A DNA stretch of 47,321 nucleotides from NCBI GenBank assembly GCA_022361155.1, contig JAKSBK010000034.1, forward strand, positions 1-47,321, in the 5' to 3' direction. The first letter of the stretch is position 1. Each line of letters begins with the position of its first letter. The stretch is from Pseudomonadota bacterium. GTDB taxonomy: Bacteria > Myxococcota_A > Polyangia > Polyangiales > JAKSBK01. A program made the translations under genes and the position numbers. Shown here in pieces: positions 5 to 47,321 of this stretch. The notes under the pieces were generated by a model that had not been told where the DNA came from, did no database searches, and was given only the letters and a program-made list of their open reading frames with translations.

Positions 5-164
5 TAAGGACCCGCGGAAGATAACTCATCCATTTCGCCGGTTCTAACCACCGCTGGCCATGTTCCTCCTCCTCGAAGTATCCCCAATACTCCTCGTCGT
101 CGCGCCTTGCCAGCGGCGCCCAGTCCTCGCCGAAACACACGAGTTATTCTTCAGCGGGCCCTTA
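5..164 (-). mobile_element. MITE-like element, copy A, at the 3' end of prkA
   Basis: The body is 8-161 (154 bp). Its ends are an imperfect terminal inverted repeat: the left end reads GGACCCGCGGAAGATAACTC, and the reverse complement of the right end begins GGGCCCGCTGAAGAATAACT. The trinucleotides TAA (5-7) and TTA (162-164) flank it. It matches the reverse complement of 7613-7767 along nearly its whole length. The central part holds inverted arms of the CCGCTGGC / GCCAGCGG type. No reading frame in it looks coding, so it is best read as a non-autonomous palindromic element. The TAA stop of prkA is formed by its outer edge. Whether it moves, terminates transcription or both cannot be told from two copies. 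Confidence 0.7.
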
Positions 165-2921: not shown

Positions 2922-3425
2922 GACGTACGCGCGTGCCCACCCCAGCCTGGAGCTTCCGTTTCCGGCTATGCGCTGCACAGCATTGAAATGAACCGCGGTC
3001 TTCGTCGGTGCGCCTTGCCAGCGACCGCCAGCCCTCGGCGCCAATCGATCACGATCCCTGGCAAGCGGCACCAGTACTCGCTTACGCGAGCGGGGCGGCG
3101 CAACAGCACCGCCTCGAGATGGGAAGAATCTACCCGCCAGAAGTTCCTTGCCTGAGTGGCCCGCAGGGCACGGCGGTGGTTCAACTAGCCTGCATCGGTC
3201 GCCCGTCAAAGATCGCCTCCATCTGCCAAGGGCTCGTGACAGAATAGCTGGTCGAGACCGGTCGCGCAGGGTGGATGCGATTCGCCGGCGCGCCCGGAGG
3301 AAAAGCCGCAGCAACAGTAGCGCTATTGCGAGGATTCTTGCGAGGACGAAAGCCGCGAGCGCGCCGCCCTGCACGGCCGCAACCGACCGAGTCTCCAGTT
3401 CGGTGCGCCGGGTCCTCGACCCCAG
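2922..3425. other. gene-poor gap with repeat C and an open minus frame
   Basis: No gene is confidently supported here. The gap holds repeat C (2967-3077). The minus-strand frame of the lipoprotein stays open to an ATG at 3374, whose first 30 residues would form a hydrophobic helix ending in arginines (LAAFVLARILAIALLLLRLF). This could be a small membrane protein or the broken end of one, but there is no similarity I recognise and no clear ribosome binding site. Confidence 0.4.
2967..3077 (-). repeat. dispersed repeat family 2, copy C
   Basis: The reverse complement of this stretch matches 32828-32936 almost base for base over about 110 bp, including GCTGGCGGTCGCTGGCAAGG and GGTTCATTTC followed by TGCTGTGCAGCGCATA. 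Copy C ends at GCATA, whereas the other copy continues about 30 bp into arms shared with elements A and B, so C looks truncated at that end. It lies just upstream of, and in frame with, the DsbD-N-like lipoprotein gene. Confidence 0.8.
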
Positions 3426-7546: not shown

Positions 7547-7609
7547 ACCTATTTACTCCCCGTACACCCGCGCCTACCACGGGGCAAGTCAGTGGAATCG
7601 GATTGGGCC

Positions 7610-7770
7610 TAAGGGCCCGCGGGAGAATAGCTCGGGTGTTTCGGTGAGGACTGGGCGCCGCTGGCGAGGCGCGACGACGAGGAGTATCGGGGATACTTCG
7701 AGGAGGAGCAACATAGCCAGCGGTGGTCAGAACCGGCGAAATGGATGAGTTATTCTTCCGCGGGCCCTAA
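7610..7770 (+). mobile_element. MITE-like element, copy B, between carB and greA
   Basis: The body is 7613-7767 (155 bp), flanked on both sides by TAA (7610-7612 and 7768-7770), a possible 3-bp target duplication. The terminal inverted repeats read GGGCCCGCGGGAGAATAGCT on the left and, reverse-complemented, GGGCCCGCGGAAGAATAACT on the right. Inside are arms CGCCGCTGGCGAGGCGC and GCCAGCGGTGG around a centre with GTATCGGGGATAC. It is the inverted counterpart of element A (5-164). The TAG stop of carB straddles its right edge. No open frame in it looks coding. Confidence 0.78.
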
Positions 7771-32579: not shown

Positions 32580-32740
32580 CGTTCCTCCGCCCGCTGCTGC
32601 CGCCGACCCGGTATGTCGCCGCTCGCGCTGGATCGAACCCGTACTCAAACCGGCCCGCGGCCCGTTCTGACTCCGTCGCGGGGTGAAAGAAATCAGGAAA
32701 GCCTCAGCAATCTCGGAAGGTTAGCCTCTGTAGAGCCGTG

Positions 32741-32770
32741 ATAATAGTGACCGGAAAAAGAGCTTGTCAA
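32741..32770 (-). promoter_or_regulatory. sigma70-type promoter of the glt-like operon
   Basis: On the minus strand TTGACA (32770-32765) is followed after 18 bases by TATTAT (32746-32741). The -35 box is a perfect consensus and the -10 box matches 5 of 6 bases. Transcription would begin near 32734, giving a leader of about 155 nt before the GltC-like ATG at 32579. It is the strongest promoter-like match noticed in the window. Confidence 0.65.
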
Positions 32771-32827
32771 GGGGGCCGCCCTCGAAAGGTTGCAAGGCAC
32801 TTCGCGCCGGCCGGACAACTGCTAGGG

Positions 32828-32967
32828 CACTAGTACCGCTTGCCAGGGATGTGATCGATTGGCGTCGAGGGCTGGCGGTCGCTGGCAAGGCGCACCGACG
32901 ATGACTGCGGTTCATTTCGATGCTGTGCAGCGCATATTCGAGGAGGTGCAACACCGCCAGCGGCGGG
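32828..32967 (+). repeat. dispersed repeat family 2, copy D
   Basis: Positions 32828-32936 match the reverse complement of 2967-3077. The extension to 32967 (TTCGAGGAGGTGCAACACCG, then CCAGCGGCGGG) matches the corresponding part of element B (TTCGAGGAGGAGCAACATAG, then CCAGCGGTGG), so copies C/D and elements A/B share the inner arms CGCTGGC...GCCAGCGG. It lies upstream of the promoter of the glt-like operon and of the TonB receptor gene. Confidence 0.75.
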
Positions 32968-33282
32968 CACGAGTTGTCTCGCTTGAAGAGCGTTCATCGC
33001 CCGGGATTGCTGGGGGCCGGCTTTGGTGAATGTGCTGCTCTTGCGTACAGGGCGGCTGCCGGGCTCCGCGTCTCCGTAGCGGACAAGCAAGTCGTGCAGC
33101 CAATCATCAAAAGTCCTAGCTGTGAGGGAAGAACCACTCGTGATGCACGAGACGACCCTCTCGAAGTCGGAGCGCGTGTATGCAAGGGAGGCAGGCGCCG
33201 AATGCAATAGGATTGACTCGAATCGCTCATTGTATTAACCCCGGAGCGGCCTTGGCACGACAGACGGGGAGAAGGCGTCCCG
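32968..33282. other. intergenic stretch without a supported gene
   Basis: Between repeat D and the 18-bp tandem repeats. A minus-strand open frame (to an ATG at 33207) reads SDFERVVSCITSG and FDDWLHDLLVRYGDAEPG, which looks protein-like but runs straight into repeat D and has no clear ribosome binding site. It may be a gene remnant; I do not recognise the family. Confidence 0.35.
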
Positions 33283-33358
33283 AGTCGTGGAACGCACAAG
33301 ACCCGAGTCGTGGAACGCACAAGAGTCGTGGAACGCACAAGAGTCGTGGAGCGCATGG
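33283..33358 (+). repeat. 18-bp tandem repeats upstream of the TonB receptor
   Basis: AGTCGTGGAACGCACAAG occurs at 33283-33300, 33306-33323 and 33324-33341, with a diverged fourth copy (AGTCGTGGAGCGCATGG) at 33342-33358. A 5-base insert separates copies 1 and 2. The array ends 4 bp before the receptor's ATG, so it forms the 5' leader. It could be a binding-site array, an mRNA leader element or a simple minisatellite. Confidence 0.8.
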
Positions 33359-33362
33359 GAAA

Positions 33363-35978
33363 ATGAGAAACGTCAACACGCTTACAGCGAGACGGATGCT
33401 CGGGGTGGCCGGTTGGCCGTTCATCGCAGCCTTGGGACCAGTACTCGTGATGCCCGCTTTCGCGGCGGCGCAAGAATCGCTCCCTCAAGATGCCGCGGCT
33501 GGCGATTCCGAGTCATTTGCCCCGGTGGGCTCGGCTGGGGAGCGTCCTGCTCCGCACAGCGGGTCGGAGGCTTCCGGCACGGCCGGCGCCGAGGCGGAGA
33601 CCGGGGATTCGGAGCCCCCCGAGGAGTTGCTCGTGACAGGTACGCGCTTCGGGGGCCGCACCAGCATGGATTCCGCGGTTCCTATCGACTCATTCAAGGT
33701 CGAGACGCTGCAGCAGCAGGGCAACGGGGATATGACGGAGATCCTGAAGAACATCGTGCCTTCTTTTGCCGCCACGTCCTACACCGGAGACGGCAGCGCC
33801 TTCATTCGTTCGAGCTCCCTGCGTGGCTTGCCGCCCGACGAAACGCTGGTGTTGGTTAACCGCAAACGCCGACATCGTTCCGCGCTGGTGGCCCTTGGCG
33901 GCGCCGCCATGAACCAGGGCGCTCAGGCCGTCGACGTCGGCATGATCCCGACCATTGCCCTTAGGAACATGGAAGTGTTGCGTGACGGTGCGGCGGCGCA
34001 GTACGGCTCGGACGCCATTGCCGGCGTGATCAACTACATCCTCAAGGACAATGCACAGGGCGGTGAGGTGCAGGCCCGAGTCGGGCAATGGTACGGCGGC
34101 GAGCACGAGTTTCAGATCGCTGGCAACCTGGGCCTGCCCCTGGGCCCGGAGGGCTTTCTCAGCCTCAGCGCCGAGTACACGGATTCCCAAGAACTGTCCC
34201 GAGGTGGCCAGCACGAAAAGGCGCGAGCATTGACGGACATGGGAGTGCAAGACGTGCCCGATCCCGCCCAGGTGTGGGGCCGTCCCCAAAGCCGGGGCCT
34301 GCGCTTGTTCTGGAACGGCGGGCTGCCGGTCACCGAAGACGTCAGGCCCTATTTCTTCGGCAGTTTTGCTCGCACCTACGGCAACTACGGCTTTTTCTAC
34401 CGCGAGCCCAACAAGTCCGGCGTGAGCACCCCGTTGCCGCTCGATCCGATGGATCCCTCGAAAGGCAATTTCAGCTGGTCGGACCAAGGCCAGTGGCCCG
34501 TCGGCTTCACGCCGCGCCTTGAGGGCTTCATCACCGACTTCAGCCAGGTTGCCGGTGTGGGCGGTGCCTTCCCGTTCGGTGTTCAGTACGATCTCAGCGG
34601 CGCCTTCGGCATGAACCGGATCAGCTACACGCTGAACGACAGCATCAATCCGTCCTGGGGCCCCGAGTCACCCACGGTGTTCAAGCCGGGGGACTTACAA
34701 CAAAGGGATCTCAATTTCAATGCCGACTTTTCCTATGGCATCACGGAGGGCCTCAATCTCGCCTGGGGCGCAGAATGGCGCAGCGAGGAGTTCACCATGT
34801 ACCAGGGTGACGATGCCTCCTGGCAAGCCGGAAGGTGGAGCGGCGTGAGCAGTCTCCGCGACCCGACGGCGATGATCGACCCGATGACCATGATGAGCAT
34901 GCCGTACACGGAACCGCTCATCGGAGCCAACGGCTACCAGGGCACATCCCCAGACATGGCGGGCGCATGGACTCGCACCAATTGGGCCTTCTATGCGGAC
35001 ACCGAGTGGGACGCGAATGAGGATCTGCTTCTCCAGGGTGCAGGCCGGTTCGAGAACTTCTCGAGCTTCGGCTCGACCCTGAATGGCAAGCTGGCAGCTC
35101 GCTACGCCGCCACGGACTTCTTGACGCTGCGCGGTGCCGCGTCTACGGGCTTTCGTGCTCCGACGCCGGGCCAGTCCAACCTGACAAACGTTGCAACGGT
35201 CTTCGTGCCCGGAACCATCGAGCAGCAGCTAACCGGAACCGTGCGGCCAACCGACGAGGTGGCCCGGCCGCACGGGGGCCGGCTGTTGCAGCCGGAGAAG
35301 TCGGTGAACGTGAGCTTCGGCTTCACCACCCAACCCACCGGCTCTCTACGGCTGACGGCCGACGCGTATCGCATTGCCGTCGAGGGCCGCATCGTGATGG
35401 CGGCCGACATCGATGTCTCGGCCATGGCGGCCCCTCCGGGCTCGCCGACGTATCAGAAGATCCGCTTCTACACCAATGGTCTGGATACGGTGACGACTGG
35501 CCTCGATGTGGTGCTGCTCTACGATCTTGACTGGGCAGATTTCGCCTTGGAGGGTGCCGGCGATATGAACGTCAGCCTGGCCTACAATTTCAACAGAACG
35601 AAGGTTGCCGAACAAACGAACATCGCCGTGAACGAACGGCGCAAAGCCAACATCGAGAACGCCTTGCCCAGGCACCACCTGGCTGCCACCGCAACGCAGA
35701 ATCTCGGCAAATGGTCGTTGATGCTGCGTGCCAACTACTACGGCTCGCACCAAGACGAAGATCCCCAATACTCGGTCGGTGGCGAGGTGCTCTTGGATGC
35801 CCAGCTGACCTACCGCATCGACCGCCGGTTCTCGCTAATGCTCGGCGCCAACAACATGCTCAACAACTTCCCCGATGAGGTACCCACACGTATGGCGAAC
35901 GGACTTCCCTGGCCCCGCCGCAGTCCGGTCGGCTATCACGGCGGTATGGTCTACTTGCGTGGCGTTGCGCGACTGTGA
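33363..35978 (+). CDS. TonB-dependent outer-membrane receptor
   Basis: A protein of 871 residues from the ATG at 33363. A signal peptide (MRNVNTLTARRMLGVAGWPF to about AFAAA) is followed by a low-complexity acidic stretch, a TonB-box-like EELLVTGTRF and a plug domain (residues about 85-195) with VPSFAATSYTGDGSAFIRSS, LRGLPPDETLVLVNRKRRH and VLRDGAAAQYGSDAIAGVIN. The rest is a 22-strand-type barrel with SVNVSFGF, LTYRIDRRFSLMLGANNMLN. It imports a substrate across the outer membrane using proton-motive force via TonB. The substrate is unknown; proximity to glucan genes allows, but does not show, a carbohydrate. The last residue is Leu (YLRGVARL) rather than the usual aromatic. The frame is open 61 codons further upstream through tandem repeats, rejected as leader. 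Confidence 0.92.
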   Translation: MRNVNTLTARRMLGVAGWPFIAALGPVLVMPAFAAAQESLPQDAAAGDSESFAPVGSAGERPAPHSGSEASGTAGAEAETGDSEPPEELLVTGTRFGGRTSMDSAVPIDSFKVETLQQQGNGDMTEILKNIVPSFAATSYTGDGSAFIRSSSLRGLPPDETLVLVNRKRRHRSALVALGGAAMNQGAQAVDVGMIPTIALRNMEVLRDGAAAQYGSDAIAGVINYILKDNAQGGEVQARVGQWYGGEHEFQIAGNLGLPLGPEGFLSLSAEYTDSQELSRGGQHEKARALTDMGVQDVPDPAQVWGRPQSRGLRLFWNGGLPVTEDVRPYFFGSFARTYGNYGFFYREPNKSGVSTPLPLDPMDPSKGNFSWSDQGQWPVGFTPRLEGFITDFSQVAGVGGAFPFGVQYDLSGAFGMNRISYTLNDSINPSWGPESPTVFKPGDLQQRDLNFNADFSYGITEGLNLAWGAEWRSEEFTMYQGDDASWQAGRWSGVSSLRDPTAMIDPMTMMSMPYTEPLIGANGYQGTSPDMAGAWTRTNWAFYADTEWDANEDLLLQGAGRFENFSSFGSTLNGKLAARYAATDFLTLRGAASTGFRAPTPGQSNLTNVATVFVPGTIEQQLTGTVRPTDEVARPHGGRLLQPEKSVNVSFGFTTQPTGSLRLTADAYRIAVEGRIVMAADIDVSAMAAPPGSPTYQKIRFYTNGLDTVTTGLDVVLLYDLDWADFALEGAGDMNVSLAYNFNRTKVAEQTNIAVNERRKANIENALPRHHLAATATQNLGKWSLMLRANYYGSHQDEDPQYSVGGEVLLDAQLTYRIDRRFSLMLGANNMLNNFPDEVPTRMANGLPWPRRSPVGYHGGMVYLRGVARL

Positions 35979-36071
35979 ACATGGTGCGCCTTCGTAGCTG
36001 GGAAGGGACGCCCGGGAAACAGCCGTGACCGCCCAGGAGACGCGGAGGGCAGCAGCCACCCCAAACATGCA

Positions 36072-36255
36072 GGCCCGGTGGTCGGGATGTTTTGCGGGGG
36101 CGCAGCGCGCGCCGACCCGCATGCCAGTTCGCTCGCCGGGTTGGCGCGCGCGTCGAGGCCGGCGTGCGCGCGCCTAGGCTCAGCTCGTGGGCTTGACTAC
36201 CGCGCGCACATCGTGCACGTCGGCCGACCCCGCAAAACGTCCCGACCACCGGGCC
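36072..36255. mobile_element. 184-bp inverted-repeat module 1
   Basis: The two ends, 36072-36099 and 36228-36255, are 28-bp inverted repeats with one mismatch. The outer end starts GGCCCGGTGGTCGGGATGTT. The 128 bp between are very GC-rich with many GCGC runs and no plausible coding frame. As RNA or single-stranded DNA it would fold into a long stem. No clear target duplication is visible. It is followed 19 bp later by the 51-bp repeat at 36275 and then by glgE. Confidence 0.75.
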
Positions 36256-36274
36256 GACCCGGCAGCGGTACATT

Positions 36275-36325
36275 CCGCTCTTTGCCGTTCACTCCAAAAA
36301 CACCTACAAAAGTGCTGAACTCGAG
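36275..36325 (+). repeat. 51-bp conserved repeat, copy 1
   Basis: This 51-bp stretch (beginning CCGCTCTTTGCCGTTCACTC, ending GTGCTGAACTCGAG) is the reverse complement of 46800-46850 with one mismatch. It forms most of the glgE 5' leader, ending 14 bp before the ATG. A weak promoter-like pair (TTGCCG, 17 bp, TACAAA) lies inside, so it might supply the promoter of glgE; this is a guess. Confidence 0.85.
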
Positions 36326-36339
36326 ACTAGAGAATCAGC

Positions 36340-38310
36340 ATGCTTCCTCCCGATGTAGTGAACCGGGTCTGGATCGAGGGCGTTCGGCCGGAGATCGATG
36401 GCGGCCGTTGGCCGGTCAAGGCCATTCTTGGCGATCGGTTCGCGGTCCAGGCCGACTTGGTGGCGGATGGCCACGACGCCGTGGCAGGCGTGGTGCTGTA
36501 TCGGTTTGGGCAGGGCGGGAGCTGGAGCGAGACGCCCCTTGATCTCCTGGTGAACGACCGCTTCGAAGCCAGCTTCGACCTCACGGAGCTCGGCCTGTGG
36601 GAGTACACGCTCGAGGCCTGGGTCGACGACTTTGCAACTTGGCGCGCTCGCCTGCAGAAGCGGATCCAGGCAAAGCAGGAAGTAGCGCTCGAGCTGCTCG
36701 TCGGGGCAGACTTGGTAGAACAAGCGGCCGAACGCGCTTGGAGAAAACACGAGGGGGATCACGCCCTGCTCGAGCGCTTCGCCCTGGATTTGCGCGATCC
36801 CGACACCACAACGGCCAAACAGGCTGCGCTGGGCATCGGTCTCTCCGACCTGATGGCTGCCTATCCGGACCGCAGTCGTGGTACGCGCTACGACCATGTC
36901 CTGCAGGTACGCGCCGAGCGGACCAAGGCGCGATTCTCGGCCTGGTACGAGCTCTTTCCACGCTCGACCGGCAGCAACGGCAAGCACGGCTCTTTTGCGG
37001 ATGTCGAGGCCGTGCTGCCCTACGTGGCCTCCATGGGCTTTGACGTCCTGTACCTGCCACCCATTCATCCCATCGGCAGGAGCTACCGCAAAGGCAGGAA
37101 CAACGCTCTCGAAGCCCAGCCTGAAGACCCCGGCAGTCCATGGGCCATAGGCTCCTCCCAGGGCGGCCACAAAGCGATCCACCCGGAGCTCGGAACCCCG
37201 ACCGATTTTCGCCATCTAGTGTCTGCGGCCCGCGAACATGATTTGGAGGTGGCCATGGACATTGCGTTTCAAGCTTCGCCGGACCACCCCTACGTGAAGG
37301 AGCATCCCGAATGGTTCAAACAGCGTCCGGATGGCACGATTCAGTATGCCGAGAACCCGCCCAAGAAGTACCAGGACATCTATCCTTTCGATTTCGGCTC
37401 CAGAGATTGGTGGCCACTATGGCAAGAGCTTTATAGCATTCTTATCTATTGGATCGAACAGGGTATCCGGATCTTCCGTGTCGACAATCCACATACCAAG
37501 TCGCTTCCCTTCTGGGCCTGGTGCCTGTCCGAAATCTACAAGCAACATCCGGATACGGTGTTTCTTGCCGAGGCCTTTACTCGACCCAAGCTCATGGCCG
37601 CGCTCGCCAAGGCAGGGTTCTCTCAATCGTATACGTACTTTACCTGGCGAAACACCCGTTGGGAAATTCAACAGTACCTCGAAGAGCTCACAACCACGCA
37701 GCTGGCCAGCTACTTTCGACCTAACTTTTGGCCAAACACGCCAGATATTCTGCCGGAGCACCTTCAGCACGGTGGCCGGCCGGCCTTCATCGCTCGCTTC
37801 GTCCTAGCCGCTACACTCGCAAGCAACTACGGTATCTACGGACCCGCATTCGAGCTCATGGAGCACGTAGCCCGGCCTGGATCCGAGGAATATCTCGATA
37901 ACGAGAAGTACGAAATTAGGTCATGGAACCTACGCGAACCGAAAAGCCTGCGCTCGATCATAACCCGCATCAATCAAACGCGCAAATCCCAGCCAGCCTT
38001 GCAGGATAATCGCAATCTACGTTTTCACCCCACGGACAACAACCAGCTCCTATGCTTCAGCAAGCATAGCGACGACTGCGAGAGTCGGGTTCTAATCGTA
38101 GTCAACTTGGATTATCGCTACAAGCAATCAGGATGGGTTGAGCTGGACCCCAAGCTGCTTGGTGTTGAAGAAGACAGCGCTTACGAGGTCCACGACGTCC
38201 TCACGGGTGCGCGCTACCCTTGGCGTGGCGGGCGCAACTATGTGGAGCTGGACCCGCAGCGCGTCCCGGCCCACCTTTTCATCGTGCAGCAACCGGCTAC
38301 AAGCGCGTGA
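36340..38310 (+). CDS. glgE: alpha-1,4-glucan:maltose-1-phosphate maltosyltransferase GlgE
   Basis: A 656-residue protein of typical GlgE length. The enzyme transfers maltosyl units from alpha-maltose-1-phosphate onto alpha-1,4-glucan chains. An N-terminal beta-sandwich and helical insertion (residues 1-190) precede a GH13 (GH13_3) catalytic barrel. Motifs: FSAWYELFPRS, YLPPIHPIG, YRKGRNN, the nucleophile Asp382 in RIFRVDNPHTK, acid/base Glu411 in FLAEAFTRPK and Asp469 in NTPDILPEHLQHGG. The C-terminal beta domain ends near 650. It is followed after 65 bp by the TreS-maltokinase gene that produces its substrate. The ATG at 36340 is the first Met in frame with family-like sequence. Confidence 0.95.
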   Translation: MLPPDVVNRVWIEGVRPEIDGGRWPVKAILGDRFAVQADLVADGHDAVAGVVLYRFGQGGSWSETPLDLLVNDRFEASFDLTELGLWEYTLEAWVDDFATWRARLQKRIQAKQEVALELLVGADLVEQAAERAWRKHEGDHALLERFALDLRDPDTTTAKQAALGIGLSDLMAAYPDRSRGTRYDHVLQVRAERTKARFSAWYELFPRSTGSNGKHGSFADVEAVLPYVASMGFDVLYLPPIHPIGRSYRKGRNNALEAQPEDPGSPWAIGSSQGGHKAIHPELGTPTDFRHLVSAAREHDLEVAMDIAFQASPDHPYVKEHPEWFKQRPDGTIQYAENPPKKYQDIYPFDFGSRDWWPLWQELYSILIYWIEQGIRIFRVDNPHTKSLPFWAWCLSEIYKQHPDTVFLAEAFTRPKLMAALAKAGFSQSYTYFTWRNTRWEIQQYLEELTTTQLASYFRPNFWPNTPDILPEHLQHGGRPAFIARFVLAATLASNYGIYGPAFELMEHVARPGSEEYLDNEKYEIRSWNLREPKSLRSIITRINQTRKSQPALQDNRNLRFHPTDNNQLLCFSKHSDDCESRVLIVVNLDYRYKQSGWVELDPKLLGVEEDSAYEVHDVLTGARYPWRGGRNYVELDPQRVPAHLFIVQQPATSA

Positions 38311-38375
38311 GGACGAAGGAGCAGCTAGCCCGTCGCCAATTGCTCGCCGCCCTCCGCACGGATACAGGACACTAG

Positions 38376-41300
38376 ATGAGCCGTCGCCGCCCGCGTCAGG
38401 AGCCAGAGAGCGAACCCCAGTGGTACAGGGATGCCGTCATCTACGAACTCCACGTCCGCGCATTTTGCGATTCCAATGCAGACGGCATAGGAGATTTCCA
38501 GGGCCTTATCAGCAAGCTCGACTATCTCCGGGATCTGGGTGTCACCGCCATTTGGCTGCTTCCCTTCTACCCGTCGCCGCTGCGCGACGATGGCTACGAC
38601 ATTGCGGATTATACGAGCGTGAACCCGGCGCATGGCACGCTTTCGGACTTCAAGCGTTTTCTACGGGAGGCGCATGCGCGCGGCCTGCGCGTGATCACGG
38701 AGCTCGTTATCAACCACACTTCGAGCGAGCATCCGTGGTTCCAGCGCGCGCGTGAAGCCCCGCCTGGCAGCCGGGAGCGCAACTTCTATGTGTGGAGTGA
38801 TACGGCGGAGCGCTATTCCGACACCCGGATTATCTTCAAGGACTTCGAGACGTCGAATTGGACTTGGGATCCGGTGGCAAAAGCCTACTATTGGCACCGC
38901 TTCTATTCTCACCAGCCGGATCTGAACTTTGATAGCCCGCAGGTTCATAGGAGCTTGCTCAAGATCGTGGATTTCTGGATGGATATGGGTGTGGACGGGA
39001 TGCGACTGGATGCCGTGCCGTACTTATATGAGCGGGAGGGAACCAATTGCGAGAACCTTGCGGAAACGCACGCATTCCTTAAGGAGCTTCGGAGGCATAT
39101 CGACGGGAAATACAAGGATCGCATGCTGCTTGCAGAGGCCAACCAATGGCCGGAGGATTCGGCGGCATACTTCGGAAATGGAGACGAGTGCCACATGAAC
39201 TTCCATTTTCCTCTGATGCCGCGGATGTTCATGGCCTTACATTTGGAGGACCGGTTTCCGCTCGTCGATATTCTGGATCAGACACCTGCGATCCCGGAGA
39301 ATTGTCAGTGGGCCATCTTTTTGCGTAATCATGACGAGCTGACGCTGGAAATGGTAACGGACGAGGATCGGGACTATATGTGGCGCGTATACGCGGAGGA
39401 TCGGCAGGCGCGGATCAACCTCGGCATACGCCGGAGACTGGCACCGCTGCTTAGGGCGCGACGGAAGATCGAGCTGCTGAACGGGCTGCTGTTCTCGCTT
39501 CCGGGCACACCGGTTGTCTACTACGGGGACGAGATCGGCATGGGGGACAACATCTACATGGGCGACCGCGACGGTGTACGAACACCCATGCAGTGGAGCC
39601 CGGATCGCAACGCGGGTTTTTCGCGGGCCAATCCTCAGCGGCTATATCTGCCGGTCATAATCGACTCGGAATACCACTACGAAGCGGTGAACGTGGAGAC
39701 AGCGCTTGGCAATCCATCGTCGCTGTTGTGGTGGATGAAGCGAATGATCACGCTGCGGACGAGACACGCGGCCTTCGGGCGGGGGGCCTTCAAGCTGCTG
39801 CGGCCGAACAACAACAAGGTGTTCGCGTTCGTGCGGTCCTACGAGCAGGAGCGGATTCTTGTAGTGGCGAATCTTGCGCGTTTCTGCCAGCACGTGGAGC
39901 TGGACTTGGCGGACTACGCGGGGTCGGTTCCGGAGGAGCTCTTTGGACGCACGCCGTTTCCTGCGATTTCGGAGGGACCATACTCGCTCTCGTTGAGCCC
40001 ACACGCTTTTTTTTGGTTTCAGTTGACGGAGCCGAGCGCTCCGGCCACGGGCGGGGGGGATGTCCCGGAGTTGCGGGATGTGGGGGAGTTGAAAGTGCTT
40101 TTGGAGCGGCCGGGGAGGGGAAGGCTGGAAGGGCTGCTCACGCAACATGTGACGCGGCAGCGTTGGTTTAGATCCAAGGCCAGGCGGATACGGAACGTAC
40201 AGGTGGTTGACGAGGCTGCGGTTGGCAGGGCGAGCTTGCTCGTGCTGCTGCAGGTGGACTTCTATCAGGGGTCGAGCGAGATCTACCTGCTGCCGCTGGG
40301 GATATGCAGCGGTGCTGAGGCAGCCGGTGTGCTGAAGGCACATCCGGCGGCGGTGTTGGCCAAGGCGGGCAAGGATGAGGATCTTTCCAACGAAGCTGCC
40401 AGCATCGTCTGTGAGGCCAGCCTGATCGAGGACTTTGCACGACAGCTTTTGGCGGTGATGGCGAGCCGCCGGGGCCTGAAGACCGGCAAGGGGCGCTTGG
40501 TGGGTTGGGTGCAGCAGGGGACCGAAACCGCGCGCGAAGCAGCTCGAAGTACCCCGCGTTCGATGGGCGTGGAACAGACCAACACCAGTATCGCGTTCGG
40601 TGAAGTTGCGATCCTGAAGCTCCAGCGCCTGATCGAGCCAGGGGTCAATGCGGACGTGGAAGTCGTCCGTTTTCTCAACGAGAGTACGACGTTTCGGCAG
40701 GCACCGGAGGTGCTCGGGACGCTGCAGTACGAAACCCAGAAGAAGGAGCCTGCCCTGGTTGGGGCGCTGCAGAGGTTCATTCCGAACCGCGGTGATGCCT
40801 GGACATTCACATTGGAGGTGATCCAACGCTACTACGAGCAGGCGCTGGCACAACCGGTTGATGTCAAAGCGGAGTTCCCGGAGGGTGGATTGGTGAAACG
40901 GGCGCTCGAGACGCCGCCCAAAGTGATGGAGGAGACGCTCGGACCGTACGTGCCGCTGGTTCGGCTCCTCGCAGAGCGAACGGCGGAGCTGCATGTGGCG
41001 CTTGGCTCGCGGCGCCGTGACCCGAGCTTTGGTCCCGAAGCATTCTCGGAGCTCTACCAGCGTTCGATGTACCAGTCCGCGCGGTCGCGGCTGGCGGCGA
41101 GCATGGACTCCCTGCGCTCCAACGTGAACAGTCTTTCGGACGCGGACCGTGACCGTGCCAACGGATTGTTGAGTCGGAGCGATGCCATCGACCACAAGTT
41201 GCGCGCGATCGCAGCCGGCAGGATCGCAGCCCAGCGAATTCGTTGCCACGGCGATTATCACCTGGGGCAGGTGCTTTACACCGGTAAGGACTTCGTGATC

Positions 41301-41702
41301 ATCGACTTCGAAGGGGAGCCAGCGCGGTCGATCACCGAGCGTCGCTTCAAGCGTTCGGCCCTGCGCGATGTTGCGGGTATGATTCGGTCGTTTCACTACG
41401 CCGCGGAAACCGCGTTACGGGAGTGTCAAGAAACGGAAACCGAGATGCAGCGGCTGGGTGCCTGGAGTCGGGCCTGGGCGGAGTGGGTGAGCGCGCTATT
41501 TCTCGGCACGTATCTCGATCGCGCCAAAGCAAGCCCTGGCGTCCCGGCTCGCGAGGAGGACACTGGCAGGTTGCTGGAGTTCTACTTGCTCGAGAAGTGC
41601 ATCTACGAGCTTGGCTACGAGTTGAACCATAGGCCGGACTGGGTGTGCATTCCGCTGTCCGGGCTGGAGCAGCTTCTGGCGCAGGGCGCGGTGCAGGGAT
41701 GA
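38376..41702 (+). CDS. treS: trehalose synthase / maltokinase fusion protein
   Basis: An 1108-residue bifunctional protein. Residues about 15-555 are trehalose synthase (GH13), interconverting trehalose and maltose: WYRDAVIYELHVRAFCDSN, nucleophile Asp212 in GMRLDAVPYL, acid/base Glu254 in LLAEANQW, Asp320 in FLRNHDELTLEM, and VRTPMQWSPDRNAGFS. Residues about 580-1108 are maltokinase (Pep2/Mak), phosphorylating maltose with ATP: N-terminal cap (RWFRSKARRIRNVQVVD), ILKLQRLIEPGVNADVEV, the kinase catalytic loop CHGDYHLGQVL (His958, Asp960) and the metal-binding Asp977 in IIDFEGEP. Such fusions occur in many bacteria. Together with GlgE it makes a trehalose-to-glucan route. Confidence 0.95.
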   Translation: MSRRRPRQEPESEPQWYRDAVIYELHVRAFCDSNADGIGDFQGLISKLDYLRDLGVTAIWLLPFYPSPLRDDGYDIADYTSVNPAHGTLSDFKRFLREAHARGLRVITELVINHTSSEHPWFQRAREAPPGSRERNFYVWSDTAERYSDTRIIFKDFETSNWTWDPVAKAYYWHRFYSHQPDLNFDSPQVHRSLLKIVDFWMDMGVDGMRLDAVPYLYEREGTNCENLAETHAFLKELRRHIDGKYKDRMLLAEANQWPEDSAAYFGNGDECHMNFHFPLMPRMFMALHLEDRFPLVDILDQTPAIPENCQWAIFLRNHDELTLEMVTDEDRDYMWRVYAEDRQARINLGIRRRLAPLLRARRKIELLNGLLFSLPGTPVVYYGDEIGMGDNIYMGDRDGVRTPMQWSPDRNAGFSRANPQRLYLPVIIDSEYHYEAVNVETALGNPSSLLWWMKRMITLRTRHAAFGRGAFKLLRPNNNKVFAFVRSYEQERILVVANLARFCQHVELDLADYAGSVPEELFGRTPFPAISEGPYSLSLSPHAFFWFQLTEPSAPATGGGDVPELRDVGELKVLLERPGRGRLEGLLTQHVTRQRWFRSKARRIRNVQVVDEAAVGRASLLVLLQVDFYQGSSEIYLLPLGICSGAEAAGVLKAHPAAVLAKAGKDEDLSNEAASIVCEASLIEDFARQLLAVMASRRGLKTGKGRLVGWVQQGTETAREAARSTPRSMGVEQTNTSIAFGEVAILKLQRLIEPGVNADVEVVRFLNESTTFRQAPEVLGTLQYETQKKEPALVGALQRFIPNRGDAWTFTLEVIQRYYEQALAQPVDVKAEFPEGGLVKRALETPPKVMEETLGPYVPLVRLLAERTAELHVALGSRRRDPSFGPEAFSELYQRSMYQSARSRLAASMDSLRSNVNSLSDADRDRANGLLSRSDAIDHKLRAIAAGRIAAQRIRCHGDYHLGQVLYTGKDFVIIDFEGEPARSITERRFKRSALRDVAGMIRSFHYAAETALRECQETETEMQRLGAWSRAWAEWVSALFLGTYLDRAKASPGVPAREEDTGRLLEFYLLEKCIYELGYELNHRPDWVCIPLSGLEQLLAQGAVQG

Positions 41703-41723
41703 GCAGGGGACACGGGATGACCT

Positions 41724-42096
41724 ATGAGGGCGACTACTCGCCGTTCCGCAAGCGTCGCCACGGGCGCCGAAGTCCTGGCTCTAGCGTGCGCGGGGCTGTG
41801 CCTCAAGGCGGGAGTCTTCCCGGCGCACGCTTTGGCTGCGAACGCTCGTCGGTCCGCTGGACTTCGTGGACGGAGGGTTCTTGGCGAGCACCACGATCGC
41901 GGGGAGCTCGGACTTGCGGCTGGCGTTCCGGCTTCTCATCCCCGGCTTCGGCGTGCTTGGCGTTCACGCGATCGCCTCGCTGAGGGGAGTTGCGCGGCGC
42001 CTACCCCTGACAAATCCTGCCCTTTCCGTCGCCGCCTTCGGCATGATCGGCTTTCCACCGATGGCCGGCTTTGTTTCAAAACGGCATTGCCGGTGA
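41724..42096 (+). pseudogene. decayed NuoN/MrpD-type antiporter-subunit fragment
   Basis: Two pieces in different plus frames. The first (from 41724) reads VLALACAGLCLKAGVFPAHA, the LKAG-FP-H motif of complex I / Mrp antiporter membrane subunits. The second (to 42096) reads VARRLPLTNPALSVAAFGMI followed by GFPPMAGFVSK, the next conserved helix pair of the same family. The frame changes between about 41850 and 41880. The C-terminal part of the family and most of the N-terminus are missing. It fills the 429-bp gap between treS-mak and malQ, and nothing else in the window is related. No functional product is expected. Confidence 0.6.
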
Positions 42097-42131
42097 GATC
42101 GGTGTCTTTGTAAGCGAGCACGGTCGGCATC

Positions 42132-44237
42132 ATGGACGCACGTCAAGCCCTCGAACACCTTGCCCGGCTTCATGAAGTCGAGACCTGCTACGAGGACGCC
42201 TGGCGCAACACCAGGCGCGCAGGCGAAGCGGCGCTATTGGCGATTCTGCGGCAGCTTGGTGCGCCGATGGATTCGCTTGCGGACGCGCCGGATGCGCTGG
42301 TTGTTTGCCGGCGACAGTGGCTGCGTCAATGCCTGGAGCCGGTGACCGTATGCCAGGTCGACCGGCGGCCAGCCCTGACGCTGCGTGTGAGCGGCCCGAC
42401 AACGGGTGGCTACAGGGCTCGCATCGAGCTCGAGGACGGCGAGGCCCTCGTCAGCGAGGGGGCGCTTTCTGACCTGCCCGGCGTGAAAGCGCACGACGTG
42501 GCCGGGGAGCAGGTCGTCGACAAGCAGCTTCGGCTCGATCGGCCGCTGCCGTGCGGCTACCATCGTGCCCGGATCGAGCTAGCTGACCGGCCGTGGGAAA
42601 CGCTCATTCTCTGCCCGCCCAGGCGGAGCTTTCAGCTCGAGGGGCGTTCATGGGGCCTTTTTGCACCCGTGTACGCTCTGCGCGGGGATCGGAGCCTCGG
42701 AGCGGGTGACCTGAGCGATCTCGAAGCCATCTTGGACTGGCTTGCCACGCTCGGAGGCCAGGTGCTCGGCACGCTTCCCCTACTTGCCACGTTCCTCGAT
42801 GAGCCCTTCGACCCGAGCCCGTACGCGCCGGTAAGCCGGATGTTCTGGAACGAATTCTACCTCGACCTCCACAAGCTGCTCGAGACCGCGGAAGCACGTG
42901 CGGCCCGCTCTGCAGTCAAATCCGAAGTGTTCATGCGCAAAGTGGATGCTCTGCGCGCGCAGCCTCTGGTCGACTATCGTCGCCAGATGGCGCTCAAGCG
43001 CAGCGTGCTCGGCGAGCTTGCGCGCGCAGCCTTTGTGGAAAATGGTGTCGCCAAAGAATCGCTCGACGCCTTCATCCGCGCCAAGCCTGCGCTGCGGGAC
43101 TATGCCGAGTTTCGAGCGGCAACCGACCTTTCGCGCAAGCCGTGGCAGCTATGGCCCGAGCCTCAACGCTCCGGCCGGCTGGCCAGCGCCGATTACCGCG
43201 AGGCCGACGTCCAGTATCACCTGTATGTTCAGTGGCGCTCTTTCCAGCAGATGCAGGCCCTCGGTGACAGAGCCCGCTCGCTGGGGGTCGGGCTGTACCT
43301 CGATTTGCCGCTCGGAGTACACGACGCCGGCTACGACACGTGGCGCGAGCGCGACGCGTTTCTGCAAGGCTGCTCGCTGGGCGCCCCGCCCGACGTGGTG
43401 TTCACCGCGGGTCAACATTGGGGCATCACCCCGCTCGACCCGGGCGGCCTCAGGAGACAGGGCTACCGGTATTTCATCGAGTGCATTCGTCATCACATGC
43501 GCTGTGCGGGTGCGCTCCGCATCGACCACGTGATGGGACTGCATCGCGCGTACTGTATCCCGGAGGGCATGCCTGCCAGCGAGGGCGTGTTTGTCCGCTA
43601 CCGTCCCGAAGAGCTCTACGCCGTGCTGGCCATCGAATCGATGCGGCACCGTACCCTGGTGGTCGGAGAAGATCTCGGCACGGTGCCGGCGCAGGTCCGA
43701 CACAGCATGAAACAAGCCGGCGTGCACCGCATGCACGTGCTGCAGTACGAGCTGGAAGGCAGCCAGCGCGATCCCCTCGAGCAAGTCCCACCGGCGGTTG
43801 TCGCGAGCATCAACACCCACGACATGGTGCCGTTCGCGAGCTGGTGGCAGGGCTCGGACATCGAGGATCGAGTTTCAAGACATCTCATCGCACCAGGCCA
43901 AGCCATGGACGTCTACGAGGAGCGGGCCCAGGCCCGCATCGTGTTGATGCAGAGGCTAGGGCTTGCCGCCTCGACCCAAGAGCGGAACCAGTTGTTCGAA
44001 GTCCTAGCGGCGATTCTCGTGAGGTACGCCTCGAGCCCCGCGCAGGTGCTGCTCGTAAACCTGGAAGACCTCTGGCTCGAGCGCGAGCCCCAAAACGTGC
44101 CGGCCACGGCCGAGGAGCGACCCAACTGGCGCAGGAAACTCCAACTCACGCTACCGGAGATCAAACAAAGACACGAGCTGATCCGGCTGCTGGAGCGGAT
44201 CGACGCGGCAAGAGCTGTTACGGATGGCGCCGGTTGA
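42132..44237 (+). CDS. malQ: 4-alpha-glucanotransferase (amylomaltase)
   Basis: A 701-residue GH77 enzyme that transfers maltodextrin segments between alpha-1,4-glucans, releasing glucose. The length matches the long E. coli MalQ-like type with an N-terminal extra domain (residues 1-160). Catalytic motifs: LRIDHVMGLHRAYCIPEG (nucleophile Asp465), LVVGEDLGTVP (acid/base Glu513) and INTHDMVPFASWW (Asp564); also WGLFAPVYALRG, FDPSPYAPVSRMFWNEFYLD. It probably trims or extends glucan made by GlgE, or degrades it to feed back into maltose and trehalose. It is transcribed with treS, separated by a decayed gene fragment. Confidence 0.94.
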   Translation: MDARQALEHLARLHEVETCYEDAWRNTRRAGEAALLAILRQLGAPMDSLADAPDALVVCRRQWLRQCLEPVTVCQVDRRPALTLRVSGPTTGGYRARIELEDGEALVSEGALSDLPGVKAHDVAGEQVVDKQLRLDRPLPCGYHRARIELADRPWETLILCPPRRSFQLEGRSWGLFAPVYALRGDRSLGAGDLSDLEAILDWLATLGGQVLGTLPLLATFLDEPFDPSPYAPVSRMFWNEFYLDLHKLLETAEARAARSAVKSEVFMRKVDALRAQPLVDYRRQMALKRSVLGELARAAFVENGVAKESLDAFIRAKPALRDYAEFRAATDLSRKPWQLWPEPQRSGRLASADYREADVQYHLYVQWRSFQQMQALGDRARSLGVGLYLDLPLGVHDAGYDTWRERDAFLQGCSLGAPPDVVFTAGQHWGITPLDPGGLRRQGYRYFIECIRHHMRCAGALRIDHVMGLHRAYCIPEGMPASEGVFVRYRPEELYAVLAIESMRHRTLVVGEDLGTVPAQVRHSMKQAGVHRMHVLQYELEGSQRDPLEQVPPAVVASINTHDMVPFASWWQGSDIEDRVSRHLIAPGQAMDVYEERAQARIVLMQRLGLAASTQERNQLFEVLAAILVRYASSPAQVLLVNLEDLWLEREPQNVPATAEERPNWRRKLQLTLPEIKQRHELIRLLERIDAARAVTDGAG

Positions 44238-44309
44238 GCGCCAGATCTATCGAACGCAGCCGCGCCCGCGGGTCTGGAGATCGCTCGGCGCTTAGGTTAG
44301 CGTGACCTC

Positions 44310-46718
44310 ATGAAGGCTTCGTGGATCGCAATCGTCTGGCCATTGCTGTTAGCAGCCGGCTGCGGGACGCGCTCCACACCCAGCGGCTCGCTGCCAGCGC
44401 GCTCGAACGCGACTCGGCCGCCGGCACCCGTGCGATCCGCGCCATCTGCCGTTCATGCGAGCTCGTCAAGCAGGGCAACGCCTCGGCCGCCCGAAGTCCC
44501 GCTGAACACAGGGCGGGACACCGATCCAAACCTATGGTTGGAGGAAATCACCGGCCAAAAAGCGCTGGCATGGGTGCGGACACACAACGAGCGTTCGCAA
44601 GCTGAGCTCGAGGCCGAGCCCGGCTTCGAGCCCTTGCGCAAGCGCGTACTCGCCATCTTGGACTCGTCGGACAAGATCCCGTGGGTCAGGAAACGGGGAC
44701 GCCACTACTACAACTTCTGGCGTGATGCGGACCACCCCAAGGGGCTGTGGCGGCGCGTTTCAAGCCTTCGGGCGTATCGAAAGGGCAAGCCCAGGTGGCA
44801 GACCGTGCTCGACGTGGACGCGCTCGCCGACAAGGAAGGGGAGTCTTGGGTCTGGAAGGGCGCCGTGTGCCTCTACCCCAAACGCACCCGCTGCCTCGTA
44901 CGCCTGTCGCGAGGTGGGGCAGACGCCACCGTTGTCCGGGAGTTCGACACCATCCGCAGAGCGTTCGTGAAGAACGGCTTCTATTTGCCCGAGGCCAAGT
45001 CCCACGTAGCCTGGCGGGATCGCAACACGCTTTACGTGGGAACGGACTTCGGTCCGGGCTCGATGACCGACTCGGGCTATCCACGGCAGGTCAAGCTCTG
45101 GAAACGCGGAACGCCGCTGAGCGCGGCCAAGCCCATCTTCGAGGGGAAGCGTAGCGACGTGACCGTGGGAGCGTACCGATCTTGGGACCATGGCCACGTG
45201 CGCGACTTCGTGTACCGCAACGTGACCTTCTACAGCTCACAGCATTTCCTGCTCGAGCAAGATGGGCTCGTACGCATCGAAGTTCCGGACTCGGCCATGA
45301 TCGACACCTGGGATGATCAGCTGCTGGTGACTCTGCGCGACGACTGGAAGCTCGAGGACCGGACGTGGTCCAAGGGCTCGCTGCTCGCGACCAACCTTTC
45401 GGCTTTCCTGGACGGGCGACGGGGGTTCACAGCCTTGTTCACGCCGGAACCAACCAAGTCGCTGGAGGATGTCACACGGCTCAAGACAGCCCTGATCGTC
45501 AACGAGCTGGAGCACGTCAAAAGCCGGCTCTGGATCTGGACGCTGAAAGGCAAGCGCTGGCGGCGGCGCCCACTCGAAGGGTTGGGTCTGGGCACGTTTT
45601 CGGCCGGTGCCGTCGAAGCGAACGAGTCCGATGCGTACTGGTTTACCGCCACGGACTTCACGCAGCCTTCGACGCTGTCGCACGCGACCTTGGGCAAGCG
45701 CCGCAGGCAGCTCAAGCAGACTCCTGCGTTCTTTGACGCTTCCGGCTTGGAGGTCTCGCAACATTTCGCCACCTCGGCGGATGGCACGCAGGTGCCCTAT
45801 TTCCAGGTCTCGAAGCGAGACCTCAGGCTCGATGGCAATAACCCGACGCTGCTCTACGGTTACGGTGGTTTCGAAATCAGCCTCAAGCCTCGCTATCGAG
45901 CGGTTGCGGGAGCGGCTTGGCTGGAACATGGCGGGGTGTACGTGCAGGCAAACATCCGTGGCGGCGGCGAATACGGTCCGAGCTGGCACCAGGCGGCACT
46001 CAAGAGCAAGCGCCAGCGTGCCTACGACGATTTCGCGGCAGTCGCACAGGACTTGATACGACGCAAAGTGACTCGTCCCGAGCGTCTGGGTATTCAAGGC
46101 GGATCCAACGGCGGCCTGCTGATGGGTGTGATGTTGACCCAGCGCCCGGAGCTCTTTGGCGCCATCGTGTGCCGAGTGCCGCTGCTCGACATGCGTCGCT
46201 ACTCCGTCCTGCTTGCCGGCGCATCTTGGGTCGGCGAGTACGGCGATCCCAGCGATCCCGAGCAATGGGCGTGGATTTCGAAGTACTCGCCCTACCAGAA
46301 CCTCAAGATGCAAACCAACTACCCGCCCGCGCTCTTCATGACCTCGACGCGCGACGACCGCGTGCATCCCGGACACGCTCGCAAGATGGTCGCGCGCATG
46401 GACCGAATGGGCTACAGGCCGCTGTACTACGAGAACATCGAGGGTGGCCACGGCGGCGCCGCCAACAACGAGCAGCGCGCACACATGGCGGCGCTGGCGT
46501 ACGTGTTCCTGGCCAAGCGGCTGGGCCTGGAACTTCGAACCCCGGAACCCGGAACCCGGGGTCCCATGTCCGAACCCGACATCCGTCTTCGCAATCCGCA
46601 ATCCGCAATCGCAATCGGACCTCGGCCTCCGCATCGGACCTCGGCCCCCGCATCGGGCTCCAATGCCGATCACTTTAGTTCCGAAGAGATCGGAGTCATT
46701 GGGAAAAGCCGAAAATAG
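44310..46718 (+). CDS. S9A prolyl oligopeptidase family lipoprotein
   Basis: An 802-residue protein. Lipoprotein signal MKASWIAIVWPLLLAAGCGT (Cys18), a Ser/Pro-rich linker to about 65, then a beta-propeller (about 100-480) and an alpha/beta hydrolase domain (about 490-730). Catalytic triad: Ser599 in GIQGGSNGGLLMG, Asp682/683 in STRDDRVHPGHA and His714 in IEGGHGGAANN. It cleaves peptides after proline or related residues, probably outside the cytoplasm. The hydrolase fold ends at about AKRLGLEL (residue 740); the remaining ~60 residues are encoded by tandem-repeat DNA and look like accidental readthrough into a minisatellite. Its role next to glucan genes is unclear. Confidence 0.9.
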   Translation: MKASWIAIVWPLLLAAGCGTRSTPSGSLPARSNATRPPAPVRSAPSAVHASSSSRATPRPPEVPLNTGRDTDPNLWLEEITGQKALAWVRTHNERSQAELEAEPGFEPLRKRVLAILDSSDKIPWVRKRGRHYYNFWRDADHPKGLWRRVSSLRAYRKGKPRWQTVLDVDALADKEGESWVWKGAVCLYPKRTRCLVRLSRGGADATVVREFDTIRRAFVKNGFYLPEAKSHVAWRDRNTLYVGTDFGPGSMTDSGYPRQVKLWKRGTPLSAAKPIFEGKRSDVTVGAYRSWDHGHVRDFVYRNVTFYSSQHFLLEQDGLVRIEVPDSAMIDTWDDQLLVTLRDDWKLEDRTWSKGSLLATNLSAFLDGRRGFTALFTPEPTKSLEDVTRLKTALIVNELEHVKSRLWIWTLKGKRWRRRPLEGLGLGTFSAGAVEANESDAYWFTATDFTQPSTLSHATLGKRRRQLKQTPAFFDASGLEVSQHFATSADGTQVPYFQVSKRDLRLDGNNPTLLYGYGGFEISLKPRYRAVAGAAWLEHGGVYVQANIRGGGEYGPSWHQAALKSKRQRAYDDFAAVAQDLIRRKVTRPERLGIQGGSNGGLLMGVMLTQRPELFGAIVCRVPLLDMRRYSVLLAGASWVGEYGDPSDPEQWAWISKYSPYQNLKMQTNYPPALFMTSTRDDRVHPGHARKMVARMDRMGYRPLYYENIEGGHGGAANNEQRAHMAALAYVFLAKRLGLELRTPEPGTRGPMSEPDIRLRNPQSAIAIGPRPPHRTSAPASGSNADHFSSEEIGVIGKSRK
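46538..46655. repeat. cluster of short tandem repeats in the 3' end of the peptidase gene
   Basis: Three adjacent arrays: CCCGGAA units at 46541-46560; CGCAATC units at about 46590-46616; and a 19-bp unit, GACCTCGGCCTCCGCATCG at 46618-46636, repeated with one change at 46637-46655. They encode the unusual C-terminal tail of the S9A peptidase. Confidence 0.8.
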
Positions 46719-46799
46719 CTGCGAAAAGCGCTCCATTGATCAGCATTGGTATCGGGCTCCGTATCGGGGTCGGTCCCGCGATAGCACCCCAAGACTCGG

Positions 46800-46850
46800 C
46801 TCGAGTTCAGCACTTTCGTAGGTGTTTTTGGAGTGAACGGCAAAGAGCGG
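46800..46850 (-). repeat. 51-bp conserved repeat, copy 2
   Basis: Inverted copy of 36275-36325, 50 of 51 bases identical; the change is A to G in the CTAC(A/G)AAAG segment. It lies 81 bp after the peptidase stop and is followed after 22 bp by an inverted-repeat module, the mirror image of the arrangement at 36072-36325. Confidence 0.85.
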
Positions 46851-46872
46851 AGATGGGTAGGGATGACCTGGC

Positions 46873-47050
46873 GTCGTCCGGGCGGGGGGTCTCGTGCTCG
46901 GGCCCGGCGGTACCCCCGGACTCGCGCCCTGTGCCGGAGGCACACCGGGGGGCCGGCTCGGAGATGCTCGCTGCACGATAGCGTCCGTCAGCGCTCAAAC
47001 ATCAGGACCCCCCGCCGGTCCCTGCGCGCGAGACCCCCCGCCCGGACGAC
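46873..47050. mobile_element. 178-bp inverted-repeat module 2
   Basis: The ends 46873-46894 and 47029-47050 are perfect 22-bp inverted repeats (outer end GTCGTCCGGGCGGGGGGTCT). The interior has secondary short inverted runs (GGTACCCCCGG, GCCGGAGGCACACCGG) and no plausible gene. Size and position relative to the 51-bp repeat mirror module 1, but the arm sequences are different. Confidence 0.75.
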
Positions 47051-47321
47051 TTGCGTGGTGACTGGCTCGGGGGCGTTGTGGGCGGCGAGCTGGCCGCCAC
47101 CACCGCACCCGCCCGGATATCCCCAAGCCTCAACGCTGAAGCTGTAGAGCGGCCGGCCCCTTCCTGGCATCGTTGGATTACTGTCGCCGGGGGTGGAAAA
47201 GCGCGTCTAAACGGCGCTGGCCAATTGGATCAAGCAAGGCACCCACCGAATCCCGGGGCTTGAAGCGCGTCTTTTTGGCGCTTGGTTAGGCGCGCGGGCG
47301 AAGATCGTGGCGGAGCCAGCC
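47051..47321. other. right-end intergenic DNA, no gene seen
   Basis: Short open frames on both strands lack ribosome binding sites and recognisable sequence. The only structure noticed is the repeated hairpin pair at 47199-47285. Confidence 0.5.
47199..47285 (+). repeat. pair of direct repeats with AGCGC/GCGCT arms
   Basis: AAGCGCGTCTAAACGGCGCT (47199-47218) recurs as AAGCGCGTCTTTTTGGCGCT (47263-47282). Each copy is itself a small inverted repeat (AGCGC...GCGCT). Confidence 0.55.

Follow-up and report, generated by a model that had tools for sequence, protein, structure and literature searches.

The window analyzed here is a stretch of 47,321 bp, contig C34 of a 5.41-Mb draft genome in 608 contigs. 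In it, four co-directional genes encoding GlgE, a TreS-maltokinase fusion, MalQ, and an S9 peptidase lie between two mirrored repeat assemblies. A 51-bp sequence, here called the tag, is found at 36275–36325 and, inverted, at 46800–46850 (50/51 identical); the inverted pair extends to 57 nt at 95% identity (36274–36330 and 46795–46851), enclosing the 51-mer. On the left, hairpin arms at 36072–36102 and 36225–36255 span 184 bp, 19 bp from the tag. On the right, arms at 46873–46902 and 47021–47050 span 178 bp, 22 bp from the tag. Folding of both hairpins (z −9.2 on the left, −3.9 on the right) beat all 200 dinucleotide-preserving shuffles. The initial annotation gave the same tag coordinates, identity, spans, and distances, all correctly, and its mirror arrangement is exact; it was silent, however, on two properties of the layout. 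The left (A) and right (B) hairpins have unrelated sequences and form two families, and the last bases of the tag are a CTAG-type transposon tip. The features are as follows.

35999–36071, plus strand: left element, inner part before hairpin A; 88–89% identity to the C436 and C443 copies
36072–36255, no strand: hairpin A, subterminal palindrome; 31-bp outer arms 94% complementary
36274–36330, plus strand: terminal inverted repeat (tag) of the left element; tip type matched at the IS701 ends of G115 and L211
36340–38310, plus strand: GlgE (PF11896, PF21702), outside the element
38376–41702, plus strand: TreS-maltokinase fusion (TIGR02456, TIGR02457), flanked gene
42132–44237, plus strand: MalQ 4-alpha-glucanotransferase (PF02446, TIGR00217), flanked gene
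44310–46718, plus strand: S9 prolyl oligopeptidase-type peptidase (PF00326, PF02897), flanked gene
46795–46851, minus strand: terminal inverted repeat (tag) of the right element; decayed tip CGAG at 46795–46798
46852–46872, minus strand: right junction or linker; native B sequence up to CCCTACCCA
46873–47050, no strand: hairpin B, subterminal palindrome; seven further substantial copies, two of them in the C60 IS701 ends
47051–47181, minus strand: B-family sequence inward of hairpin B, common with C199 and C103 to 47096 and with C163 to 47181

The CTAG of the left tip (36327–36330) lies 9 bases ahead of the glgE start codon, and the left remnant begins about 20 bp after a TonB-receptor gene (ORF 33180–35978). 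The window's match to C436 and C443 begins exactly at 35999; the match between those two copies extends further inward. At the right junction, B-family sequence ends at 46854 and the tag begins at 46851, a position where several other B copies run on with CAAGTTGCTCC or similar. From there the right element runs toward the contig end (47321). Elsewhere in the window, a weak inverted match (78%) between 33050–33085 and 36026–36061, either side of the TonB-receptor gene, is possibly another A-element remnant, and pieces of further dispersed repeats at 2967–3083 and 32829–32964 are mutually 95% complementary over 86 nt.

Dispersed copies of the tag and hairpins

A search for the tag across the genome, as suggested with the initial annotation, returned only the two window copies at three or fewer mismatches; diverged copies and tips are numerous. 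Full or nearly full diverged tags were found on C210, C18, C503, C392, C98, and C435, besides partial ones. Wherever the context is readable (C210, C18, C503, C392, and C98), the inner neighbor of the tag is hairpin A or the right arm of A; contig C435 begins at the tag, and C163 carries the base of A with a decayed tag. Hairpin A has further copies on C98, C503, C443, and C436, and partial ones on C18, C392, and C210. The A-plus-tag copies have the tip in common and differ in their inner break points (35999, 36061, 36091, 36198, 36220, and 36241), as expected for decaying copies. A genome-wide tip search found no opposite partner or matching second end for any tag-type copy on its contig.

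Seven other substantial copies of hairpin B were detected (C199, C173, C163, C103, C345, and two in C60). None has the tag directly attached, and homology between these copies and the one in the window is lost at 46854 or sooner. The right assembly is therefore a chimera that was seen nowhere else in this genome. Hairpins A and B are each present elsewhere without the other. The initial annotation had also proposed that the tag plus a variable hairpin is a genome-wide cassette type. We keep from this a dispersed family of transposon ends, two copies of which flank these genes by chance, but not a neat cassette, because the other readable tags adjoin A and hairpin B is normally tagless.

Two of these contigs hold further features. 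On C163 (locus L143, 94–920), hairpin B, a collapsed hairpin A reduced to its stem base, and two tRNA genes occur within 830 bp. On C443 (L141, 2941–3336), weak CRISPR-repeat matches with a spacing of about 72 bp lie near the hairpin A remnant and the contig end.

IS701 elements and the architecture of their ends

The outer end of the tag, its tip, is GCTGAACTCGAGNCTAG. Across the genome, the pattern GCTGARCTCGAGNCTAG is matched exactly at 15 places and with two or fewer mismatches at 47, against 20 for the reversed control. Inverted tip pairs 162 to 163 bp apart represent complete 163-bp miniature elements. Those on C11 and C443 have the exact tag tip at both ends, those on C397 and C454 have it with one to two mismatches, and those on C162 and C167 have a closely related tip of the C60 type. 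A third repeat family consists of ~160-bp elements with terminal inverted repeats (TIRs) ending GGGCCCTTAG, found in the window (5–165 and 7609–7768) and genome-wide, with about 40 copies scored at 88 to 94% and 273 first-look candidates. Its internal core (TCGTCGTCGCGCCTTG) is common with the 163-bp CTAG elements; the terminal repeats are different.

A near-complete element of ~2.18 kb at C60:123–2301 has 30-bp inverted ends (93%) with CTAG at both tips. Its transposase matches PF13546 and scores 271.9 bits against NF049999 (cutoff, 170); with a curated model above its cutoff and paired TIRs, it is an IS701 insertion sequence. Hairpin B adjoins each of its terminal repeats, at 77 and 73% identity to the window copy. 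Because hairpin B lies just inside both C60 ends, the hairpins are subterminal parts of transposon ends, and an IS701 element end is built in this way, with a hairpin immediately inside a CTCGAGNCTAG tip. The transposase frame of this element (L130) resumes in another frame at ~640–680, past a run of C and A, which appears to reflect a mutation or a programmed shift. As the frame apparently continues elsewhere near the 3′ part of the transposase, the C60 copy may be inactive. A 93-amino acid SEC-C protein (TIGR04102, PBPRA1643 family), encoded at 1726–2007 opposite the transposase, is a possible accessory or passenger gene. The DDE_Tnp_1 genes on C35, C519, and C574 were rejected as related transposases, having no match to that of C60; nor was there such a match between the C199 hairpin B and the tip at C199:17475.

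An independent mosaic repeat of REP/BIME-like or BOX-like kind, untied to any DDE transposon, would accommodate the pairing of a single tag with two hairpins and of a single hairpin with two kinds of terminal repeat, and the dispersal of the copies. We nevertheless consider it very improbable, because hairpin B is part of both ends of an IS701 element, and the tip ends both TIR-bounded elements and the IS701 elements of other genomes.

Among 184 genomes of the order, 15 (the window's own included) encode a related transposase at E ≤ 1e-20. The closest, in G115 (C288), a genome that matches a Polyangiaceae MAG contig (JAICQQ010000177.1) and from which the order is taken to be Polyangiales, is 51% identical. 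This insertion sequence starts CTAGCCTCGTGTTGAGCACTTTT, and its left end, given as CTAGCCTCGTGTTGAGCACTTTTTAG, is identical to the window tag at 20 of 24 positions; the best of 576,000 control positions in other loci reached 17 of 24. Its two subterminal regions both fold strongly (z −3.3 and −4.4), with sequences other than A or B. An NF049999 element in a Chloroflexota MAG (L211; JAUJPG010000001.1) has the ends CTAGCCTCGACTT and AAGTCGAGCCTAG and no unusual folding, and multicopy IS701 elements in G177 (Polyangiales) have CTCGGGTTTCGCCC ends, TCWGA flanks, and left subterminal folding that is not unusual. A tip of the type CTAG-N-CTCG ends IS701-family elements in both the Polyangiaceae and the Chloroflexota MAG. 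From the ends and folding of these relatives, we infer that the tip is a signature of the NF049999 branch and that hairpins are limited to part of it. The target of IS701 elements is of CTAG type (YTAR), backed in this genome only by the CTAG at the tips; a literature search on IS701 target duplications found nothing useful. The exact 22-base core of the tag had 0 matches among GTDB genome contigs.

We conclude that each assembly is very probably a solo end, a non-autonomous remnant of an IS701-family DDE transposon separate from the other. Read from the tip inward, such an end comprises a CTAG-type target, a 52- to 57-bp terminal inverted repeat (the tag), and a palindromic subterminal hairpin of ~180 bp. 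The tag would once have served as the binding site of a transposase, which would have placed such elements into CTAG-type (YTAR) sites, and the rest of each copy would have been lost by later deletions. For the parent element, the hairpins may have acted mainly as transcription blocks or end-folding structures. The right copy probably arose by recombination that replaced a B module's native flank with a terminal repeat of the tag type. The window copies have a terminal inverted repeat with the tip type of C60, G115, and the Chloroflexota element, and they share subterminal sequence with the C60 ends in the form of hairpin B; they have no transposase gene, and only one end each rather than two with a target-site duplication. 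No complete element was seen to contain hairpin A. This genome yielded no tag-type IS701 element in intact form, so tag and transposase are linked through tip similarity and the G115 relative. Given the assembly in 608 contigs, intact repeated copies may be missing from the data.

Polarity of the ends and the resident genes

From the outside, the order in C60 is tip, terminal repeat, hairpin, gene. Read from right to left, the left window element has its tip (36330), repeat, hairpin A, and a remnant to 35999; read from left to right, the right element has its tip (46795), repeat, hairpin B, and a remnant to at least 47181. Both tips thus point at the glgE block and both bodies point away, which is the reverse of the polarity needed to mobilize the block by outer ends. 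Outer ends are absent on the left, and none was seen on the right before the contig end. A tblastn search of the window with the C60 transposase gave no match, so the window copies are not autonomous insertion sequences. For tRNA-linked integration, no tRNA was found in the window.

A treS-type gene closely follows glgE in all 14 relatives examined, and the glgE-treS adjacency is ancestral. The vicinity of glgE in those 14 yielded no MalQ, peptidase, or TonB receptor. No convincing repeat copy was found in the 56 relatives searched; the sole match to an A-plus-tag query (G052:C349; 83% over 45 bases) had no element around it and was attributed to chance. Relatives with the same genes and no repeats, which the initial annotation had named as evidence against its proposals, were therefore encountered in part: the glgE-treS pair in 14/14, and no tag in 56. 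The glgE block itself is resident DNA and has no particular connection with the repeats.

The first alternative offered in the initial annotation was that the block moved or inverted as a unit. A composite transposon of 10.5 kb, or movement or inversion via the two inverted tags, would suit a 50/51 inverted pair around four co-directional genes. The window tags, both near the family consensus, are also the closest pair of all tag copies (98%; next, 94%), which independent insertion does not predict, and eight tag copies in 5.41 Mb give ~0.11 pairs within 10.5 kb expected by chance. With such closeness, one end may have been copied locally. However, the CTAG tips face inward with the hairpins outside, whereas in C60 the hairpin is inside the tip; outer ends and a transposase are lacking, and the left element abuts the TonB-receptor gene; the element types occur singly elsewhere; and the glgE-treS adjacency is an ancestral trait. 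With transposon-end tips pointing at it, the block is not a mobile unit, and we regard its movement as very improbable. Inward tips, no paired end, and a conserved glgE-treS adjacency instead indicate two separate solo ends that lie by chance around ordinary genes. The polarity of transposon tips can thus decode a striking symmetric layout, and here it rules against a mobile block.

Hairpin persistence and comparison with known systems

Across eight copies of hairpin B, both partners have changed in five pairs; shuffles gave 1.2 and slid controls no more than two. One arm has been rewritten to match the opposite arm in two copies, the right arm in C199 (L144) and the left arm in C103 (L146). 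Template switching at quasipalindromes rewrites one arm to match the other (PMC8794818). Because it makes the same kind of arm rewriting, the covariation seen in these alignments need not mean selection on an RNA. This is a warning that base-pair covariation in repeated hairpins can stem from mutation, not selection.

The strong folding of both hairpins, the excess of pairs changed on both sides in B, and the proximity of the left tip to the glgE start would also be compatible with selected structured RNAs, a regulator or terminator of glgE and its neighbors, instead of transposon debris. This is highly improbable, given that Rfam has no match even at E ≤ 1 in 32700–47321, that the copies are scattered over unrelated sites, many of them cut off within the stem, and that the arm rewriting in C199 and C103 is obtainable by template-switch correction without selection (PMC8794818). 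No known RNA family matched at its gathering score in the whole window. A cobalamin riboswitch at 35999–36061, with the TonB gene nearby, was rejected without Rfam support.

What is unusual about the solo ends is that palindromes of ~180 bp, with compensatory changes and arm homogenization, are joined to different terminal repeats. The interest of the locus lies in these hairpin-bearing IS701 ends and in the right-hand combination of modules, not in the gene block. A possible but doubtful extension is that, in a Polyangiales branch of IS701, large subterminal palindromes evolved into a functional component of the element ends that can be exchanged (transposase-guiding, transcription-blocking, or expressed as a structured RNA). 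Template switching would keep these hairpins palindromic, and their transfer from one terminal repeat to another would create new end types by module exchange. Our findings point to an IS701 branch with ~200-bp hairpins in its element ends, and the dispersed copies of one hairpin, some of them arm-rewritten, are a natural dataset on the persistence of long palindromes in bacterial genomes.

Composite transposons likewise place two inverted IS-like ends around a gene block, but they have outward-facing ends outside the cargo and a transposase; the window has inward-facing ends only, with no transposase and no outer ends. REP/BIME elements are short palindromes with a Y1 (RAYT) transposase, whereas the window copies are, in size and ends, more in keeping with a DDE element. 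Quasipalindrome correction by template switching (PMC8794818, PMC7202029) resembles the homogenization of hairpin B arms, in opposite directions in two copies; here it would have acted on dispersed transposon ends, as read from alignment only. Bacterial MITEs are also short non-autonomous copies with IS-type ends, and the 163-bp elements, short and with two TIRs, are classic examples; the window elements, in contrast, are single ends and not TIR-to-TIR miniature elements. With IS701 insertion sequences (C60, G115, and L211), the likeness extends to CTAG-N-CTCG tips, terminal inverted repeats, a DDE_5-type transposase, and a CTAG-type (YTAR) target, from which the window copies differ in having no transposase and one end each. 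Within IS701, C60 (with hairpin B) and G115 (with other hairpins) are strongly folded in their subterminal regions, unlike the Chloroflexota and G177 elements.
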